From Branchiostoma floridae (Eukaryota; Chordata; Leptocardii; Amphioxiformes; Branchiostomatidae): a stretch of DNA of 64,000 nucleotides. Positions 7,276 to 64,000 of the stretch are shown one piece after another; within the stretch, counting starts at the first letter, position 1, and each line of letters opens with the position of its first letter. The notes under the pieces were generated by a model that was not told where the DNA came from, did not search any database, and saw only the letters and a list, made by a program, of their open reading frames with translations. The DNA lies in contig NC_049994.1 of the NCBI RefSeq assembly GCF_000003815.2, positions 3,029,464-3,093,463 on the forward strand. The letters are read 5' to 3'. The position numbers and the translations under genes are program-made.

Positions 7276-7400
7276 ATGACATTGACGAAAGAATGCGAAT
7301 GCTGTCTGAAACGTTTGACGTAATCAAAAACAATACCTAGTGGCTTGAGGATCTGCATTTTGCCGTACCGTATGGCAAAATTTAACACTTCGAATTACTG
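7276..7400 (+). mobile_element. Penelope-like terminal fragment with decayed hammerhead-like motif
   Basis: Contains ATTGACGA at 7281-7288, a stem-forming stretch, then TGAAACGTTTGACG ending at 7320. It continues into ATCAAAAACAATACC and GTGGCTTGAG, which parallels the sequence after the better motifs at 39.79 kb and (minus) 50.80 kb. The first core base is T rather than C and the cleavage triplet is GTT, so activity is unlikely. Homology to the family is clear only by side-by-side comparison. Confidence 0.5.
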
Positions 7401-7667: not shown

Positions 7668-8075
7668 GCAATTACTCAAACAACTGGATATGAATTTGGA
7701 AAGGACAGGACGTTTCAGATAGCCTTCACTATATGTGGAATAGCAGGTTTTAAAAGTTAGCTATATACAGAGGATTGTGAAGACACGTTCAAAACAGTCG
7801 AATATGAAAAAAAAACTGTAAGACAAGACAAGGTTAATGAAAATTATTCAATTAACTCCCGAGTATGGAAACCATTATTGCCTTGTGGGGTAGGTATCTC
7901 AAATGTATAAAAAAGTTCCATACTTGGATATTCTTTGGCGTCGAGAATGGGGTTTTATATCTCCTTATATATATATATATAGCTCCAAGTTAGAATCAGC
8001 GGGGTTAGTGGTATAGGGTAAGCTGCCTTTTTGGCGTATTTTATTACCTTGGCGTCTAATTTTCATCGCCGCACT
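7668..8075. mobile_element. Penelope-like element fragments in opposite orientations
   Basis: At 7668-7736 the minus strand carries CTATCTGAAACGTCC followed by TCATATCCAGTTG, the 3' half of the hammerhead-like module. At about 8016-8075 the plus strand carries the tail GCCTTTTTGGCGTATTTTAT followed by GGCGTCTAATTTTCATCG. The same opposed arrangement (module on minus, tail on plus) is seen at 50.76-50.95 kb. A short (TA)n tract lies between them near 7965-7981. Confidence 0.55.
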
Positions 8076-16439: not shown

Positions 16440-16597
16440 GCTATAGGTAAGGTACGTCGATAAAAATTAGACATCCCGGTAATAAGATATGCCAAAAAGC
16501 AGTTACTCAAGCAACTGGATATGATTTTGGAAACGGTCAGACGTTTCTGATAGTATCCACTATCTTATATCAGTGACACTGAAGTGATCTGGAAGAG
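16440..16597 (-). mobile_element. Penelope-like terminal repeat with hammerhead-like motif, core damaged
   Basis: On the minus strand: CTTCAGTGTCACTGATATA, a stem GATAGTGGATACTATC, then AGAAACGTCTGACC (motif 16535-16577), followed by the tail CATATCCAGTTGCTTGAGTA and CTTTTTGGCATATCTTATTA. The stem II hairpin and the GAAACGTC part are intact, but the first core is CTGATAT instead of CTGANGA, so the G8-A9 equivalents are lost and cleavage is not expected. Confidence 0.6.
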
Positions 16598-16615: not shown

Positions 16616-16770
16616 AAGGCAATGTCAAGCTGAATACAATTTGGATTCTAATAGAAATCACAAAAAAAAGGCAAAGTCAAGCTGACGACAATTTAGATTC
16701 CAATAGAAAATAAAGGTAAGACAAAATCAAGCTGAAAACAATTTTGGATTCCAATGGGAAACAAAGCTAA
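16616..16770. repeat. Tandem repeat, ~51 bp x 3
   Basis: AAG(G/A)CAA.(G/A)TCAAGCTGA followed by ACAATTT.GATTC.AAT starts near 16616, 16668 and 16718. It lies directly beside the Penelope-like piece. Confidence 0.8.
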
Positions 16771-16798: not shown

Positions 16799-16880
16799 GT
16801 AACAGTTACTCAAGCAAGTAGATGAACAGTCAGTCGTTTCAGAAAGCGTCCATTTGTCATTGACTAAACAAAATCTGTCT
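16799..16880 (-). mobile_element. Penelope-like fragment, decayed
   Basis: CAGTTACTCAAGCAAGTAGA then AGTCAGTCGTTTCAG and GTCATTGACTAA is a damaged version of the 16.5-kb module in the same orientation. Confidence 0.5.
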
Positions 16881-30486: not shown

Positions 30487-32129
30487 CAATCTGTAGTAGC
30501 CTCACTTCTACGGTTCTCATTCTAAATTATTTTTGCAACTGGAACACCCTGGTTGGAGATGCAATCGCATTTTGGAAGGGATGTAAAATGAGGGTCCTGT
30601 GTTTCAGGACGTGCCTCGAGCACGTAAGAACAGTTTCATTACTTGCGTACCTACTGGCTTTACTACATGGTGATTAAAGATAGCCTACATAAATCACACT
30701 TCTAGCGGCCAACCCATTGGTCATGCCTATAGAAAATTTGATGGTCCAAGCCCCTTAGTCAAAATTTAGAACACCCTAATAACGTTGATCAATGCAGATG
30801 TTATTAAATGGGATAACTCTTTTCGACTGTCCATGGTGTTGGAAGCGTTGTCTCTGGTTTCCATAGTGCAGGACTAGTGAAAGATGGTCCCGAGCTCCTA
30901 TTGGATGGATTTTTAAAAGACAATGGTCCTCTCAACTTAAAGGTTTATGTCCACAAGGTCTCAGCAAAGAGTCCCAATAAGCTTCTGACAGAGACAGATG
31001 GTGTAGTACAGCTCTAATCTCTTCTTAGGCATTGCTTCTGTGTTCATTTATCATGGGTGTCCTTGAAGTGCGTTCATGCTTGAAACTGCTGTGTCAAAAA
31101 GGTCGATTCGGTCCCGTGTGACATGGAATAGATAAGGCTGTGAAGCAAAAGATTTTTTTGCACCGGACAAGTCTGAAATGTATTTCTTGTGCAGTAAATA
31201 GCAAAATGTAAATGGTAAAAGTGAAGTGGGAGAAAGATAAACATAATGAAATAAATACGACAAATCTGTATGGGGTCCAAACTGGTCCCATTTTTCTTTG
31301 CTCATAAAAAGCTTTCTGGTGGTCCTTATTGTGATAAACTGGTCTATACTTTTAATCAATCTAGGGAGAATATTTTCAAGTGTTCTTTAATGCCATAGCT
31401 TATGCATAGAATGAGGTGAACTCTCTTTGACCAATTAGATTAGAGAATAGCTGCGTATCTGTAAAATATTTGCATTATTATGCCTTTGTTTCTCCTAGGG
31501 ACTATGGGATCAGTCTACACTACTGGAAATTGCTATATCTTTGGTGCACTAGTTGTAATATATATCATTTGATCTTATGCTGTGAAAATTAGTATGGTCT
31601 CGAGGAAAACCAAATGGGTGCTGATTTTAGAAATAAGTTTTGTCTCTTTGCCCCATTGGCCTCGTCTTCGATCTATCATGGCCGACGCATGAGAAAGGTT
31701 TATACACATCATAGTAAGTCAGGCCACTGAGTGGGTCGTTAGCGATTCTTCCCTCGACCATTTTCTATCGTGAACGTGTTGCATGAGCGCCTAAATGCTC
31801 ATTTGCTACGTGCATAGAAAGGTTACCATAATAGGGAGAATACACAATCCCACCCTTTAACAGGAAGGGGGCTTACGTATGGAAGTATCTGATACTTGGG
31901 ATGTGGCGTTAACCCCTAAAAACTGAAACAGACAAAACTAAACATGATCTACAGATCATAAAGAAATAAGTCAAAATCATAAAATCAACCTGCTAGCAAA
32001 TAACGAATGAACGCAAATACAGAAAATCAAAGCAAGGGATGCAACAAACAGGCACCAAGTACATGGTATAATACTTAATAATAACTGAACATAATATAAT
32101 CAATTGTAAGAAGCAAGGGAACAAATAAA
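30487..32129. other. No gene seen
   Basis: Three overlapping minus-strand frames near 31051-31359 share DNA and show no domain. The left part of the minus-strand LINE 3' UTR may extend below 32130. Confidence 0.45.
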
Positions 32130-36574: not shown

Positions 36575-37475
36575 CATGCCTGGTCTGCCGGTTGTTCATT
36601 TCAAGCAATGACGCAATTGCACGCGCATTGCGCATTACCCCGGCGCAATTACTTGCCGTTCATCTTCATGACGGTATAACGTTGTCTAAAATTCAACAGC
36701 CAATCATGTGGACGCCTAAGGTCCAGGGTAAACTTGATTGGCTGGTAGCGTTCCTTACAACAAGTATGATACCAGATTCGCCGCTTGAATATTTCAATCA
36801 ATTACCCTGGTGCTCTATGGCCTGGTATTCGTCTTCCTGACGGCGTTCACGGTGCGGCCTTAGCGTTGTCTTAACGTCAGCAACCAATCACGTGGCCGCC
36901 TACGGTTTTAGGGGAAATTGATTGGCTGGTAGCGTTCACTACAGCAATCATGCCGGTTCGCCGCTTGTACATCTCAAGCCATGACCCCAGTGCCATGGCC
37001 TGTTATTCGTCCTCCTGATGGCGTTAGTGTTGTCTGAACGTCAGCAACCAATCACGTGAACGCCTAGGGTCTAGGGGAAAATTGATTGGCTGGTAGCGTT
37101 CCCTACAGCAGTTATACCAGGTATACCGCTTGTACATTTCAAGCAATGACCCCGATGTCATGGCCTGTTATTCGTTCTCCTGACGGTGTCAGCGTTGTCT
37201 GAACGTCAGCAACCAATCACGTGAACGCCTAGGGTCTAGGGTAAAATTGATTGGCTGGTAGCGTTCCCTACAAAAATCATGCCGGTTCACCGCTTGTACA
37301 TCTCAAGCCATGACCCCAGTGCCATGGCCTGTTATTTGTCCTCCTGATGGCGTTAGTGTTGTCTGAACGTCAGCAACCAATCACGTGAACGCCTAGGGTC
37401 TAGGAGAAAATTGATTGACTGGTAGCGTTCCCTTCAGCAATAGGAGGGGATATATGATTGGCTGATGGCTTGCCA
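36575..37475. repeat. Tandem array, ~164 bp unit, CCAAT-CACGTG in most units
   Basis: Units start with CAGC(AAC)CAATCA(C/T)GTG at 36697, 36878, 37042, 37207 and 37371, so unit lengths are 181, 164, 165 and 164 bp and the last is partial. A partial unit precedes 36697. Each unit then has GCCTA(G/C)GGT, TTGATTGGCTGGTAGCGTTC, CCGCTTGTACAT(C/T)TCAAGC, ATGACCCC, CATGGCCTGTTATTCGTC and GTTGTCTGAACGT. Inner units are over 85 percent alike by eye; edge units are more diverged. A lone relative (GTCAGCAACTAATCACGATG) lies at 56154. Confidence 0.92.
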
Positions 37476-39754: not shown

Positions 39755-39840
39755 AGATCTATTCAGTGTCACTGACGAAAGATTTAATCTGAAACGTCTG
39801 ACGTGTCCAAAATCATATTCAGTTGCTTGGGTATAAACTA
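39755..39840 (+). ncRNA. Hammerhead-ribozyme-like motif in a Penelope-like repeat (core complete)
   Basis: Reading 39768-39802: GTCA, then CTGACGA (39772-39778), a short hairpin AAGATTTAATCT, GAAA (39791-39794), CGTC, TGAC. This is the hammerhead order: stem I 5' strand, CUGANGA, stem II, GAAA, very short stem III, NUH (GUC), stem I 3' strand. Stem I is GUCA/UGAC plus two G-U pairs outward. Stem III is only the self-complementary ACGU, as known in hammerheads of Penelope-like elements, which would favour action as a dimer. One A between CUGANGA and stem II is unpaired. It is followed by the family tail ATTCAGTTGCTTGGGTATAA. Activity is untested. Confidence 0.55.
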
Positions 39841-39944: not shown

Positions 39945-40030
39945 AATTCACTGTCACTGACGAAAGACGTTATCTTAAATGTCTGAATGTTTCCAAAATG
40001 AATTTCAGTTGCTTCAGTATAAACTATCCG
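39945..40030 (+). mobile_element. Second Penelope-like module, hammerhead-like part decayed
   Basis: GATCAATTCACTGTCACTGACGAAAGACG (39941-39967) keeps the CTGACGA core, but the GAAACGTC part has become TAAATGTCTGAATG, and the tail TTTCAGTTGCTTCAGTATAA follows. It lies 182 bp after the first module in the same orientation, so the two may be tandem terminal repeats of one element. Confidence 0.5.
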
Positions 40031-46719: not shown

Positions 46720-48006
46720 CAATACATCACAATGGGCCTTGCGGTCATGACAGTTAGACTTTATTTCCCTAAGGAATTGTCTCGTGTTACGGTTTTTAGT
46801 GTAATTCGGCCAATTTGTACTCATACATTGGTTCTAGAATTAATTTCTATCATAATTGGGTCAGACTAAACAAAAAACTAACAAGAATTATTTGCGGTAG
46901 ACACTTGCGATAGATTCTTTCGCTGTCATTGGTGGATCAATTCCACGATTGCGGCAAGGCTGCTGTGATCGCGCTGTGATCTAAAACCTTACTCTAAACG
47001 ATTTCCACCGATACAAATATCCGGAAGACTCGAACGGGGAAACAGACAGACATACAGACACACCTAAAACAATACCTCCATTTTTATGGAGGTAACAGCG
47101 AATTTAATTGCGCTCTGTATGTATAGTTTCCAATCACACGTTTACATTTTGCATAATATTCCTTTTATAAAACTAGGTTTTTAAATATCCTATTGTAGTC
47201 GTAGTGAGGTTTTAATTATGGAATAGGTTTCTTATAAATCAGCCGAACAAATCTTTAACCTAAAAATTTACGGTTGAAATATTTCAGTGAAAACTCGAAG
47301 GGTTTATCTGATCACTAGGACTGAGATTTGAGCACACACGCAAGATTTGTGCACAGTATGGCATACATAACCTTTTAACATTTTCTTCAAATTAGACCTA
47401 GAATGAAGCGAGCAAATTCGAGATTCGTGTAATTTAATTTGCAAGGTTTCTGTTCTACAAATTAATTAAGAGGACTGCGTCAATTAGACGGACACACTGC
47501 AAAGTAAAACGAGAGAAAACTCCGTAGCGAGCCATTTTTAGTATACAAAAAGACACGAACACAAAGACAAATAGCATATTTTCTTGGCGTTAGAAACAAA
47601 TAGGCTTTAGGATTAGGTTTATGGCGTATACATGTGATTTCGGGTGCTCTGGCTGTGTGTATTGTTGAAAGGGTTGTATTAACTAGAAAAGCCTGGATAC
47701 CGTTAGAGTTAATACAAAACTACGTCCGGCATAGTTGACAGATGGGCACTTAAACATTATGGGGTCAGCTCTCGACTAATAATGCGTCGGGTATACATGG
47801 TTAAAATGAACGTAATATATACACTGCATTGGGGTAGTTTAGAAAAGGATGTGTACGTGTTGTTTTTGTTGTGACCTGTACTTAGCTCGGTTTGGCACAA
47901 AATGTACTACAAAATCTCTATTCATACATCATTTTGTAATCTTTAATCGCCAATTTTCTGCTCTAATGCTAAATGATATGCTGTGTATAAAAATAAGAGG
48001 AAAAGT
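46720..48006. other. Intronic or intergenic sequence with a repeat end at 47035-47095
   Basis: No coding exon is recognised. GACAGACATACAGACACAC and a hairpin CCTCCAT-tttt-ATGGAGG (47081-47099) repeat the family end seen at 24.46 kb. If the GPCR gene is intact, this is the start of its first intron. Confidence 0.5.
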
Positions 48007-48012
48007 ACGTAC
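48007..48012 (-). other. Predicted splice donor of the GPCR exon
   Basis: On the minus strand AACCG is followed by GTACGT. Splicing here leaves two bases (CG) of the arginine codon of NRY on this exon. An intron within the arginine codon of the (D/N)RY motif is a known position in many class A GPCR genes. Confidence 0.6.
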
Positions 48013-48467
48013 CGGTTGAGAGATATAACAGCGAGAGTTAGGACGGACGCCAAGCCGAACATCGTCGTGGTAAAGCCGTTGATAGCACACATTGCGTCGC
48101 CCATGTTCCAACGCTTCTCGGAGACGAGAACTACCACCGTTATGGGACCGTTGACCACTGCGGTAAGAAGATCGCAGAGAGCGAGGTTGAAGACGAGTTG
48201 GTTGGACACAGTCCGGAGTTTGGGGTTGGAAATGACCATCCAACACACGGCAGCGTTTCCTAGTACAGTAGCCAGCATGATCAGCAACATCGCCGTTATC
48301 TCTAGGACCACCGTGCCGAGGGCGGATCCTTCCTCGGCGGTAGTTGAGGGGGTCGCCGAAGCGTTCTCGTCTCTCGTCCCGTTCCACGTAACGAAAGCGT
48401 CCATCGTTGGCGACCCGAAAACTCGAGTCACCAGCGTCGAAGGAAACTCGGTCGGATAATAACTCAT
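48013..48467 (-). CDS. Class A (rhodopsin-like) GPCR, first coding exon, N-terminus to TM3
   Basis: The exon encodes 151 residues plus part of an arginine codon. The extracellular N-terminus (1-50) has two N-glycosylation sites, N29-G-T and N35-A-S. TM1 (about 52-79) has the G70-N71 motif. The first loop has NPKLRTVSNQ. TM2 (about 90-113) contains LALCD with the conserved D99. The next loop has the conserved W120 and C127 (KRWNMGDAMC). TM3 (about 129-150) ends in the L-N-R-Y form of the DRY motif (N151-R152-Y153). The start ATG has A at -3 and is the first in frame. Such receptors sit in the plasma membrane and signal through G proteins. NRY instead of DRY and the sequence around it recall melatonin-receptor and GPR84/Tre1-like groups, but the family is not decided from half a receptor. 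TM4-TM7 are not found in the window to the left, so the intron is long or the gene is incomplete. Frames on the opposite strand are shadows. Confidence 0.9.
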
Positions 48468-48868
48468 CCTTGGTTTATCCTCTTTCGTTTAGCAACAAAA
48501 AAGAGCAGAATTTTGAAGAATTTTATGGTAGCGGTGGCACTACGTACTAAGTGAACTAGACGTTCCAGCTATGAGAGATTGAACACAAGATACGTGTCAG
48601 TCGCTTTACATAAGTATTACTTGCTAAACATGTAGGATGAATTTGTAAGACAGGGTAGAGCGCCAATGAGTTTGCCAAAGGCGCGTCATGGGGCGGTCCA
48701 TAGCTGGCTGGTGGGCCGAACAAGAGACTTACAGGTGGGGGAAGTCAACTGTAGGCGAGATATGCGTAAATCCCGGGAAATTTGCATAGGCGTCCTTCAC
48801 CCAACACGCCCCCTTGCGTGTGTGTGTATATACTGCAGCTAGGCTATTCTTTGGCCCGAGTCACTTAT
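48468..48868. other. Upstream region of the GPCR exon
   Basis: Expected to hold the 5' UTR or an upstream intron of the minus-strand GPCR. No TATA box or clear initiator is recognised. A CTTACAGGTGGGGGAAGTCA stretch (48728-48747, plus strand) is not obviously related. Confidence 0.4.
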
Positions 48869-49265: not shown

Positions 49266-50760
49266 CAAAGTACTAATAATCTAAAACAAAACGACAAATA
49301 TATTCTATCTGTGACTATAAGAACCCATACATGCCAGTTGTTCCATATTGCGATCGATTTGATTTTGGAAAGAGACAAACCTCGGGACAATGATTTCGAT
49401 CTTTTCTTACTACAGTAAATCCAGGCAACAGTATAAAATCTAAGTGAGGTACACCAGCGATATGTGTCAGTAATCTATCAGAAATATAGATTCAAACTGT
49501 AGATTTTCGTGCCAATTATATTTGTAGCAGGTCTGGAGCCAATTGCGAATAAAATTGTGGTCCCACGATGTACGTATGTTTGCTAATGTCTATTGTCAAT
49601 GCTTTACAAATATCTATATTTATTGTATATCAATACAAGTCGGCACGTCCTGGTGTGCAAGTATAGTTTCAGCTTCCGCCTCTGACTGTTTTGTTTGAAC
49701 TTCAAACAATCGTTCTGAAATACCTGGAAAATATACAAACTTCTGAAATGCTCTACGTTTTGTAGTTTAACTATAAAATGTTCTACGATAGTTGATATAG
49801 TTGGGTTTTGCCGCATTTATTGTTAATCGGATATCATGGACATATGATAAGTTAAGTATCTGCTTTTGGTCTAGTCTCCAAGCAAGTAGGTTTGGAAAAT
49901 TGCATAATTCCATAAATCTTCAAATTTTAAAATTTTGCTCAATTCTTCCTAGAAAATAAGATTACCTTTGGAATATTGTCAAGAAGTGATATATGATCCC
50001 TCCGTTGTTTAATGGAACAATCCTTATAATATCACTTATATTTTCACATTCCAGTCATGCTCTAGGCTTTGCCTGTATCTGCACAGCGTTATGCTAGATA
50101 ATCCTAGGATTTCATACCAGTAAAAACTAATAAAGTGTCGATGAGCCCCTTGAGTATTTGTTCAAGGCTCTAGGCACTGGGTATGTTTGGTTTGTACCAT
50201 GAATATTGATGATTAATGGTAATGTGATGACAAATAGGCTACGAGTATAAATAACACGAATGCGGTGAAATATGTCAAACGTAATTTTGCAATTAAGTAA
50301 GGGGATTCGGGGTTCGAACTGCGTATGCGCAGAGAAATGCATTGTGGGTGATATGTCATAGGTCAAGGCCTCTGAGGCATAAAAAAACGCCTTTGGACAT
50401 TGTTATGCAAATAGAGACAATTTTTTAAAGAAAAGTTCACATGTAAAGGAACTTCGAATTCAACACATACTGCCCACAATACATTTTACTGAACATGCGT
50501 AGTTGTGTGAAAATGCTACTGTATTGTTTACTTCACTAGGGACGGGGGGCATTTCATTCAAACCCGAGTATTAGATCTACACGTATATTATTTTGTCTTT
50601 GTGCTGTATATATTCATGTACAGTATGTACAATTAGCTGCAGCTGCTCTCCACTAGACTATTACTAGCAAAGTAACCTGAACTACCTATTGTTGACTTCA
50701 TTTCACATTTTATGCTATGTTTTTAGCAACCAAACACGTTTGGAAGACATTCCATTATTA
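49266..50760. other. No gene seen
   Basis: A+T-rich DNA without a supported feature. Confidence 0.45.
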
Positions 50761-50948
50761 TACGCTCAAAAGTAGTTACCCAAGCAACTGGATATGGTTT
50801 CGGAAACGGTCAGACGTTTCAACTGCTATCCAGCAGTTTTCGTCAGTGACACTGAAGAGATCTTTTTGCCCATGTTGTATAATAACAAGTTGCTTGAGTA
50901 ACTAATTTTTGGCGTATCTTATTACTTGGATGTCTAACCTACATCGAC
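50761..50948 (-). ncRNA. Penelope-like terminal repeat with hammerhead-like motif, flanked by an inverted tail
   Basis: The minus-strand motif 50809-50851 reads GTCA, CTGACGA, a stem of AACTGCT with AGCAGTT around a GGAT loop (7 bp), GAAA, CGTC, TGAC. All hammerhead core positions are in order: CUGANGA, GAAA, then GUC. Stem I GUCA/UGAC has 4 bp and stem III is only ACGU. One A beside stem II is unpaired. On the plus strand, TACGCTCAAAAGTAGTTACC (50761-50780) is mirrored by GTAACTAATTTTTGGCGTA (50898-50916), so the module lies between inverted copies of the family tail. This is the best-preserved stem II in the window. Cleavage is untested. Confidence 0.55.
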
Positions 50949-51790
50949 GCATTCAATTATTAGATGCACGCATTTTTTTGGACTATGTATTGCAATTTCA
51001 TGTAAGTACAAGCTGCGAATGCCATCAACTAGACTGCTACTAGCCTTGGGTATTGTAAAGCAAGTTAAAACCATTTGCCTCTACAGCCATCATTCATTCA
51101 GAACGTCTGCGACCCCATGTCACGTAGGAAAGCTCATGATACGGTGGACTCTAGCTAATATTACATCTCCTCTCTGATCTGTGTCTGTATTCAAGTGCGC
51201 CAGCATATGGAGTCTGATATTTGAGCCCTCGCTAAACACAACACCTAGTGAGAAATAACATTTATTTCATGAACGATAACACACCCAGGATATTTTATGT
51301 TTTTCACCTACGCCAACTTATCTTTGTGATACTAACAAACAAGGATCCAAAGCTTTTTCTTAGTCAATGTGTCGGATGCACGAATTGTAACACAAAGACC
51401 CCCCCTCCCTCCAAACTTATTCTCTTATATAGTAGTAGCCCAATGTGTTCTTCTGCTGCAGTTGTCTGGACTGCGGTGGTCTGCAGCTGCAATCTTTCTT
51501 CAACTCTCCACTTTGTCTTGTCCATCGTGAGCTTCCTTACCTCTTAACTCAAGTAGTTTTCTCCTCCTAATCTTATATCTACACACAGATATGCATGTGT
51601 TAGGATGATGTTCCGTTTATACCTCCTTTATTTCAAGTCAACCTATTGGTCTTAAGTACACGGATCAAATTTAAAAACTTTTGCTTCTTCTCGGGGATCA
51701 ACAACGAGAGAACTGTATTTTACATGATCTTCTTTGCGATCTCTGCGAACAATCTTTTCTGATCGCAATCTTTTCCGTAACATATACTTT
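50949..51790. other. No gene seen
   Basis: A 99-codon plus-strand frame at 51248-51547 has a moderately hydrophobic start but no recognisable domain. Confidence 0.4.
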
Positions 51791-63253: not shown

Positions 63254-64000
63254 TTAACTAGTATGAGTCCGCGCGTGTTTCTTCAGATGAGCTGACCGAC
63301 GAAAGCATTTGTTACATTTTTCACATATGTACGGTCTCTCACCGGTGTGAGTCCGTATGTGGTCCTTTAGATGAGCTAGCTGACGAAAGCATTTGTCGCA
63401 TGTTTCACATCTGTACGGTTTGTCACTAGTGTGAGTCCGCATGTGTGTCCGCAGATTGACTAGTTGACTGAACTGCTTATTACACTGTTCACAAATGTGC
63501 GGCTTTTCACCTGTGTGTGTTCTCATATGCATCTTCAGATGACTCAGCTGACTGAACTGTTTGCTACACTCGTCGCACTTGTATGGCTTTTCACCAGTAT
63601 GAGACCATATGTGTTTCTTCAGATGTCCCATCTCACCGAACTGCCTGCTGCACGCCTCGCACTTGTAGGGTTTCTCTCCCGTGTGGGTTCGCATGTGTAC
63701 CTTCAGAGGGGATAGCTGTCTGAAACGTTTGAGACAATATTTACAAAGGTACGGTTTCTCACCTGTGTGAGTTCGTACGTGTTCCCGTAGCTGACTCAGT
63801 TGTATGAACTGCCTTCGGCACTTCTCACAAATATAGGGTTTCTCGCCTGTGTGTGTCCGCATGTGTGTCTTTAGATGACTCTTCCGACTGAACCGCCTGT
63901 TGCATTCCTCACATCTGTACGGTTTCTCACCTGTGTGAGTCCGCATGTGTGCCTTTAGATGACCCAGTCGACCAAACTGCTTGCTGCATTTCTCACACCT
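63254..64000 (-). CDS. C2H2 zinc-finger protein, C-terminal part, nine fingers, open at right edge
   Basis: The minus-strand frame is open from the window edge (first complete codon 63998-64000, AGG) to TAA at 63254-63256. Nine consecutive C-x2-C-x12-H-x3-H fingers are visible, spaced 28 residues, joined by TGEKP linkers; one linker is TSDKP and one is TGERP. The protein ends THTS right after the last finger, so the fingers are C-terminal. Such arrays bind DNA in the nucleus as transcription regulators. Contact residues (for example RKSHLK, QLSQLR, EMGHLK, RSAHLK) differ between fingers, so this is not a homogeneous repeat. The N-terminal domain, which would class the protein, lies outside the window. 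No stop or shift is seen. The plus-strand frame at 63464-63715 is its shadow. Confidence 0.96.

Follow-up and report, generated by a model that had tools for sequence, protein, structure and literature searches.

A 189-bp insertion in the genome of Branchiostoma floridae carries a type I hammerhead motif. The site is very probably a non-autonomous insertion derived from a Penelope-like element (PLE), with a minimal hammerhead that would cut as a dimer in tandem transcripts. Judged by its sequence, the motif appears to be a real member of the already known PLE minimal hammerheads, apparently built for dimer action. A wider proposal is more tentative, with doubt slightly outweighing belief: that the ribozyme of these PLEs is an obligate dimer with a fixed extra nucleotide, in which core pair 3-8 (a natural G-C swap included) and the centre of stem III have been re-paired repeatedly, dimer cleavage being selected throughout the lineages.

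The motif and its insertion

On the minus strand of the window, the whole stretch of 64,000 nucleotides that was analysed, the motif reads GTCA-CTGACGA-A-AACTGCT-GGAT-AGCAGTT-GAAA-CGTC-TGAC from 50850 to 50809 (Table 1). It is made up of a stem I of 4 bp, a stem II of 7 bp, a complete core and one extra A 5′ of stem II; the order of CUGANGA, GAAA and NUH, together with stems I and II, is that of a type I hammerhead. This sequence, the order of the core, the complementary stems I and II and the self-complementary ACGU were all found as the original prediction, made from the letters alone, had described them. No stem III closes within the monomer. The ACGU could serve as stem III only if two molecules, or two copies in tandem, paired with each other, and the retention of a palindrome (ACGU, AAUU or AGCU) is consistent with a dimer. 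Since stem III cannot close in one copy, we infer pairing of two copies through the palindrome, a mode of action described in the literature on PLE and newt hammerheads. The window was scanned with a descriptor of the hammerhead core in which stem III has no loop and up to one extra nucleotide is allowed. It detected two sites, the main copy and a plus-strand site that starts at 39772, where 300 dinucleotide shuffles of the window gave 0.013 on average; both sites also have at least three matches in stem I and at least 4 bp in stem II, a combination seen in 0 of 300 shuffles.

The original prediction had named the lack of a covariance-model match as one outcome that would refute it, and no such match was obtained. 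Rfam 15 gave no hammerhead match at gathering scores in the whole window or at E ≤ 10 on 50001-51500; nor did Rfam at E ≤ 10 on two of the motifs alone, or on 16 motif-carrying PLE flanks. These misses are tentatively attributed to the missing stem III, and the hammerhead label is kept, with reservation, because a model match is a criterion of the tool that lies outside the definition of the ribozyme.

The inverted tails that had been claimed around the motif are genuine, with 36-nt arms that are 83% complementary, while the proposed end at 50948 proved one base short: other copies support 50949, an end common to the tail ends of the copies at 16.5 and 8.0 kb, and a 52-nt end is common to other copies. 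The arms are not a plain terminal repeat, as the 3′ side stops 52 nt past the predicted cut and the inverted piece, which BLAST aligns to an 85-nt tail query at 87% over 71 nt, runs 33 nt beyond the 52-nt end and terminates at ATCGACG. By eye, the last 20 nt of the tail (50930-50949), read as M-S-N-L-H-R, resemble the start of a PLE reading frame; the PLE used for comparison, on contig 10, begins its frame with M-Y-N-L-H-K-R. A near-perfect 13-bp duplication flanks the insertion; 0 of 20,000 random pairs were as good at fixed boundaries, and 7 of 20,000 when ±3 nt of slack was allowed. To its left, the insertion is flanked by sequence with a weak likeness to a decayed tail, one that 6% of random 34-mers equal in score, so that the left boundary could be blurred. 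The duplication reading is preferred because the right member starts exactly at the end common to other copies.

The insertion holds a single ribozyme, the inverted piece being without one; a dimer is therefore possible only with another transcript. The main copy is in all likelihood a dead, non-autonomous remnant of a PLE pseudo-LTR (pLTR), in which a complete core stands alone. A fossil is the most likely description, although action in trans is possible and it may still cleave; with no tandem partner the solitary copy is probably inactive now.

Table 1. Positions of the hammerhead, its insertion and the further copies in the window
Feature	Position	Strand	Basis or remark
Type I hammerhead motif	50809..50850	-	sequence, descriptor scan, covariation
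GTCA, stem I 5′ strand	50850-50847	-	sequence
CTGACGA	50846-50840	-	sequence
Extra A, between core position 9 and stem II	50839	-	copy comparison
Stem II strands; loop GGAT	50838-50832 with 50827-50821; loop 50831-50828	-	sequence
Stem II (7 bp) and GGAT loop overall	50821..50838	-	covariation in 52 distinct 42-mers
GAAA	50820-50817	-	sequence
ACGU, self-complementary	50814..50817	-	sequence
C17	50813	-	predicted cut between C17 and 50812
TGAC	50812-50809	-	sequence
Whole insertion (189 bp): inverted pLTR piece, then hammerhead-bearing PLE pLTR	50761..50949	-	inverted arms, common ends
pLTR 3′ part past the cut, down to the short (52-nt) end	50761..50812	-	ends of other copies
Inverted pLTR piece at the insertion's 5′ side, as far as the long end	50879..50949	+	BLAST
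33-nt PLE "tail" extension	50917..50949	+	extension seen in three copies
Left target-site duplication, CATTCCATTATTA	50748..50760	.	12/13 identical to right member
Right target-site duplication, CATTCAATTATTA	50950..50962	.	begins at shared end
Copy B1, first of tandem pair; core complete, stem II short	39768..39802	+	motif scan
Copy B2, second of tandem pair, G12 to U	39953..39987	+	motif comparison
Copy C, G8 and A9 changed, carries 33-nt tail	16536..16577	-	stem II covaries with main copy
Copy D, C3 to U, GUU triplet	7278..7319	+	motif comparison
Copy G, retains stem II and GAAACGTC but not the 5′ core; inverted tail 8018-8071	7705..7746	-	motif comparison
Copy E, decayed, GAC triplet	16829..16864	-	motif comparison

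Copies in the window and across the genome

Seven copies of the repeat lie in the window, at 50.8, 39.8, 40.0, 16.5, 16.8, 7.3 and 7.7 kb, the six besides the main copy being decayed to varying degree. B1 and B2, 185 bp apart, have the right arrangement for a tandem dimer, but B2 has lost G12. Among the seven copies, both-sided changes occur in 6 of 11 pairs (5/7 in stem II, 1/4 in stem I), a count that 0 of 500 shuffles reach; the covariation score is reached by 6 of 500 and the count of further pair types by 87 of 500. On the alignment of the seven, RNAalifold predicted no structure, a point against the hammerhead reading.

Some other features of the window are recorded here. A tandem array with a 52-bp unit (16616-16765) separates two decayed minus-strand copies, E and C. 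Judged by eye, the PLE frame and the pLTR hammerhead at the locus L052 have similar sequence between them, so the array may be PLE sequence amplified in place. A second array (36856-37441) has a 164-bp unit in 3.6 copies with 87% match. At 31828-31917, on the plus strand, lies a 30-residue scrap, 67% identical, of the C-terminal part of a PLE protein, beside which the window-wide motif search placed no hammerhead copy. On the minus strand, 47946-48488 is an exon-like frame for a rhodopsin-type receptor (7tm_1, E 6e-21) and 63257-64000 an open frame with C2H2 zinc fingers that runs to the window end. The window has 172 frames of at least 65 codons; 75 of these were compared with Pfam at E ≤ 0.1 and gave no RT or endonuclease match, and the scrap at 31828-31917 emerged when a PLE protein served as query.

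The host genome was searched over 513 Mb in 431 contigs. The 34-nt motif of the main copy has 159 matches with up to three mismatches (control, 0), and the stem I and core pattern GTCACTGANGA...GAAACGTCTGAC has 1,046 exact matches, the reversed control again giving 0. Among the matches listed of these 1,046, 63 distinct strings were typed, in which CTGANGA is followed by A in 61 and by C in 2; 52 of the 63 have the length of 42 that corresponds to one extra nucleotide and a 7+4+7 stem II. In these 52 distinct 42-mers, 329 of 364 stem II cells are paired, a share that falls to 17 to 56% if the partner strand is shifted by 1 to 3; each of the seven pairs occurs in at least two Watson-Crick types. 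Double-changed cells number 76, compared with a shuffle mean of 24.6; neither this count nor that of the paired cells was attained in 2000 shuffles. Double change in all 7 pairs (reached by 479 of 2000 shuffles) and the 18 extra pair types (reached by 86 of 2000) are not significant, and these two measures therefore say little. Covariation of stems I and II across copies of the repeat had been proposed as a test; stem II does covary, and across PLE lineages stem I differs with pairing kept.

Because the GTCACTGANGA...GAAACGTCTGAC pattern fixes the core, a second search fixed the flanks only. With the core free it gave 373 genome matches (control, 0), of which 100 were typed; 84 have the standard length, 67 of them distinct, in a sample that the exact-flank requirement tilts towards well-kept copies. 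The length expected without the extra nucleotide (33) was seen in 0 of the 100. The extra A, which the original prediction had suggested might be a family trait, is indeed one, being A in 66 and T in 1 of the 67 distinct copies. In the same 67, the commonest base is kept at core positions in 94% on average, against 74% in stem II and loop; G8 is the lowest-kept core position (82%), and 413 of 469 stem II cells pair. The whole core is intact in 49 of the 84 standard-length 34-mers, and many of the changes are of CpG type, at C7-G8 and 15.2-16.2.

Of 18 loci examined, a 3′ end could be recognised in 16. Two clusters of ends stand out, near 52 and near 85 nt past the cut: short ends lie at 49-52 nt, or at 33 nt in a single copy that has a deletion, and long ends at 82-88 nt. 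Duplication scores of at least 9 were found in 8 of the 16 copies, the main insertion and both kinds of end included, and in 0 of 64 controls made from mismatched flanks of other loci; in the other half of the copies tested no duplication was seen. In 20 further neighbourhoods, the 3′ end is common to the copies and the 5′ length is variable. Three loci (L041, L042 and L043) hold head-to-head inverted pLTR pairs, with arms 99% identical over 122 bp, 88% over 603 bp and 100% over 165 bp, respectively; such near-identical arms imply that some members are young or gene-converted.

The PLE parent and its lineages

The same pLTR is found beside PLE reading frames. At L052, an open frame of 447 residues ends 230 bp before the ribozyme and scores 27.6 bits against RVT_1, below the cut-off of 29.6, which the frame of a longer relative (L064) passes with 30.6 bits. 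Matches of the PLE frames to bacterial RT models are weak and far below their cut-offs, and a PDB search yielded one weak RT match below E 0.01 (8bgj, E 0.0022 and 0.009). The Pfam GIY-YIG model gave no match to the PLE frame, which holds a TYIGET-like stretch that may be a GIY-YIG-type signature. A PLE protein search of the genome returned 96 matches, several of them in frames of more than 700 residues. On contig 10, the end of an upstream PLE frame is followed by a hammerhead, a tail and a new frame that apparently starts in the tail, after which come a second hammerhead and tail, in the order pLTR-frame-pLTR. On contig 355 (L064, L067 and L069), an inverted hammerhead pLTR precedes a PLE frame of 769 codons; the 453 bp past that frame and the next stretch fetched (partly N) contain no convincing hammerhead. 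The Penelope-like assignment originally made for the repeat thus gains an RT frame directly upstream of the same pLTR, the pLTR-frame-pLTR order of a relative and ends about 33 nt apart. As in PLEs generally, the pLTRs stand in tandem or inverted, and the ends near 52 and 85 nt correspond to the optional tail of 30-40 bp that arises from two RT start sites.

A close comparison is offered by the biochemically studied Poseidon element PAc of Anolis carolinensis (PMC11167929), in which stem II starts 26 nt before the cut and the pLTRs are in tandem. Its main RT start is 111-118 nt from the frame start, hence at 85-92 nt beyond the cut, and a second start lies 30-40 nt from the main one. Here, too, the start of stem II is 26 nt from the cut, and the ends are about 33 nt apart, the long one at about 85 nt; these distances are a main reason for calling the repeat a PLE pLTR. 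The two elements differ in that the PAc frame starts at stem II, whereas that of contig 10 apparently starts in the tail, past the ribozyme. Insertion of PAc in vitro does not require the ribozyme, which in turn needs protein in order to cut (PMC11167929). Pen2a_Av and its relatives in Adineta vaga (PMC3846280) likewise have inverted pLTRs with an optional 31-bp tail on one of them, duplications of 8-10 bp and a pLTR that reaches into the frame start; the words hammerhead and ribozyme are absent from the main text of that source.

The PLE minimal type I hammerheads (Cervera & de la Pena 2014; Lunse et al. 2017), as described in papers that cite them, share with the present motif an open stem I, a stem II, the lack of a closed stem III, the dimer palindrome, the location in pLTRs and the tandem arrangement. 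The motifs described here may differ in the one nucleotide that stands 5′ of stem II in every PLE-flank motif, and cores with G3-C8 occur in some of the lineages. From the 96 PLE protein matches, 40 were picked for diversity, and their 3′ flanks (401 or 501 bp) were scanned with positions 3, 8, 15.2 and 16.2 free and 0, 1 or 2 extra nucleotides permitted. The motif follows 37 of the 40 matches on the sense strand (it is absent at L072, L098 and L106), compared with none on the antisense strand and 0 of 2000 mononucleotide-shuffled flanks, and all 37 motifs have one extra nucleotide. In the plus-strand hammerhead of CChMVd, a viroid ribozyme and in that respect different, the extra A sits between A9 and helix II. 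The CChMVd hammerhead structure in PMC3705267 resembles the present one in containing an extra A.

The 37 motifs comprise 22 distinct ones, in which pair 3-8 is C-G in 11, G-C in 7, U-A in 3 and U-G in 1, and pair 15.2-16.2 is A-U in 11, C-G in 9 and G-C in 2. As the latter is Watson-Crick throughout, the four-base stem III is self-complementary in 22 of 22. When the two pairs are mapped on a tree built from 16 RT fragments, at least four changes are required for each; four inner branches are weak, and the long rows L117 and L121 each carry changed pairs. A hand count made without these two rows leaves 2 changes of each pair. The stem II covariation among copies and, between lineages, the covariation of pair 3-8 and of stem III speak for a hammerhead. 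With the flanks TTCC...GAAAATTTGGG fixed and positions 3 and 8 free, 416 genome matches were obtained (control, 0), of which the 100 listed, sorted by eye, are U-A in 70, G-C in 25, A-C in 2 and C-A, G-G and U-G in 1 each; the G-C form of pair 3-8 alone has 103 matches (control, 0). A natural compensatory change of this pair, to U3-A8, was reported in 2011 (Perreault et al. 2011, PMC3088659), the difference being that section 8 of that text does not mention G3-C8. A literature search whose reach stopped short of the 2014 and 2017 PLE-hammerhead papers found no report of natural G3-C8. A pattern scan of IMG/VR returned 22 loci, among which nothing related to the repeat was recognised and 13 represent a single coding-like stretch that recurs; one viral contig (L021:339-370) carries the hammerhead-like CTGATGA-GGGG-TTAGT-CCCC-GAAAC, either a ribozyme or chance.

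Rival readings and proposed cleavage by paired copies

The motif might be an ordinary imperfect palindrome, a hairpin of GTCA, GACG and stem II kept for a DNA or RNA structure such as an RT or endonuclease signal, without any ribozyme. The minimum-free-energy fold of the main copy does lengthen stem II by pairing GACG of the core with CGUC (-15.9 kcal/mol, against -11.6 for the hammerhead fold), and 79% of the cells in these columns pair in the seven window copies; the monomer may therefore misfold, and the competing fold may be one reason for the protein help seen in PAc. The columns, however, contain no double changes and no covariation in the seven copies. Cores of other lineages (GUGAACA with AAUUU, UUGAGAA with GCUU) do not form an extension of this type, and pair 3-8, stem III, stems I and II and GAAA nonetheless persist in them, which makes a plain palindrome improbable. 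Marginally less probable again is a metazoan retrozyme, that is, a separate small hammerhead element with a circular RNA that PLEs merely mobilise, as the short, non-coding insertion and the one 185-bp tandem pair in the window might suggest. Against it, the closed stem III that most invertebrate retrozyme hammerheads possess, according to the literature, is missing; the pLTR adjoins PLE reading frames and its tail corresponds to a frame start; 11 of the 20 neighbourhoods fetched have one motif only; and the main copy is not in tandem, so that the stable helix III in tandem repeats expected of a retrozyme is not seen.

The 36-nt inverted arms and the target-site duplication would also suit a DNA transposon (MITE) with terminal inverted repeats, in which the hammerhead arose by chance. 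This candidate is already contradicted and most improbable of all: the two arms stop at places 33 nt apart, the copies have a common 3′ end and a variable 5′ length in place of fixed ends, the duplications vary from 9 to 14 bp in place of one fixed length, and the repeat abuts RT frames.

The preferred reading, a PLE hammerhead acting as a dimer, implies that in tandem transcripts two hammerheads would pair through the self-complementary ACGU and form a shared stem III. The dimer would fold round a core with one extra nucleotide 5′ of stem II, and each unit of the tandem transcript would be cut after GUC, a cleavage that may serve to separate or process tandem PLE transcripts. The covariation of the palindrome fits such pairing, and a self-complementary site could be kept for other reasons. 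The natural variants (C3-G8, U3-A8 and G3-C8; ACGU, AAUU and AGCU) are material with which the contacts that the dimer needs can be tested. Compensatory changes have recurred both at a pair of the catalytic core and at a palindrome for which pairing is possible only between copies, and this argues for a natural importance of dimer cleavage to the element; the way in which the motif has evolved in this genome suggests maintenance of cutting by paired copies.
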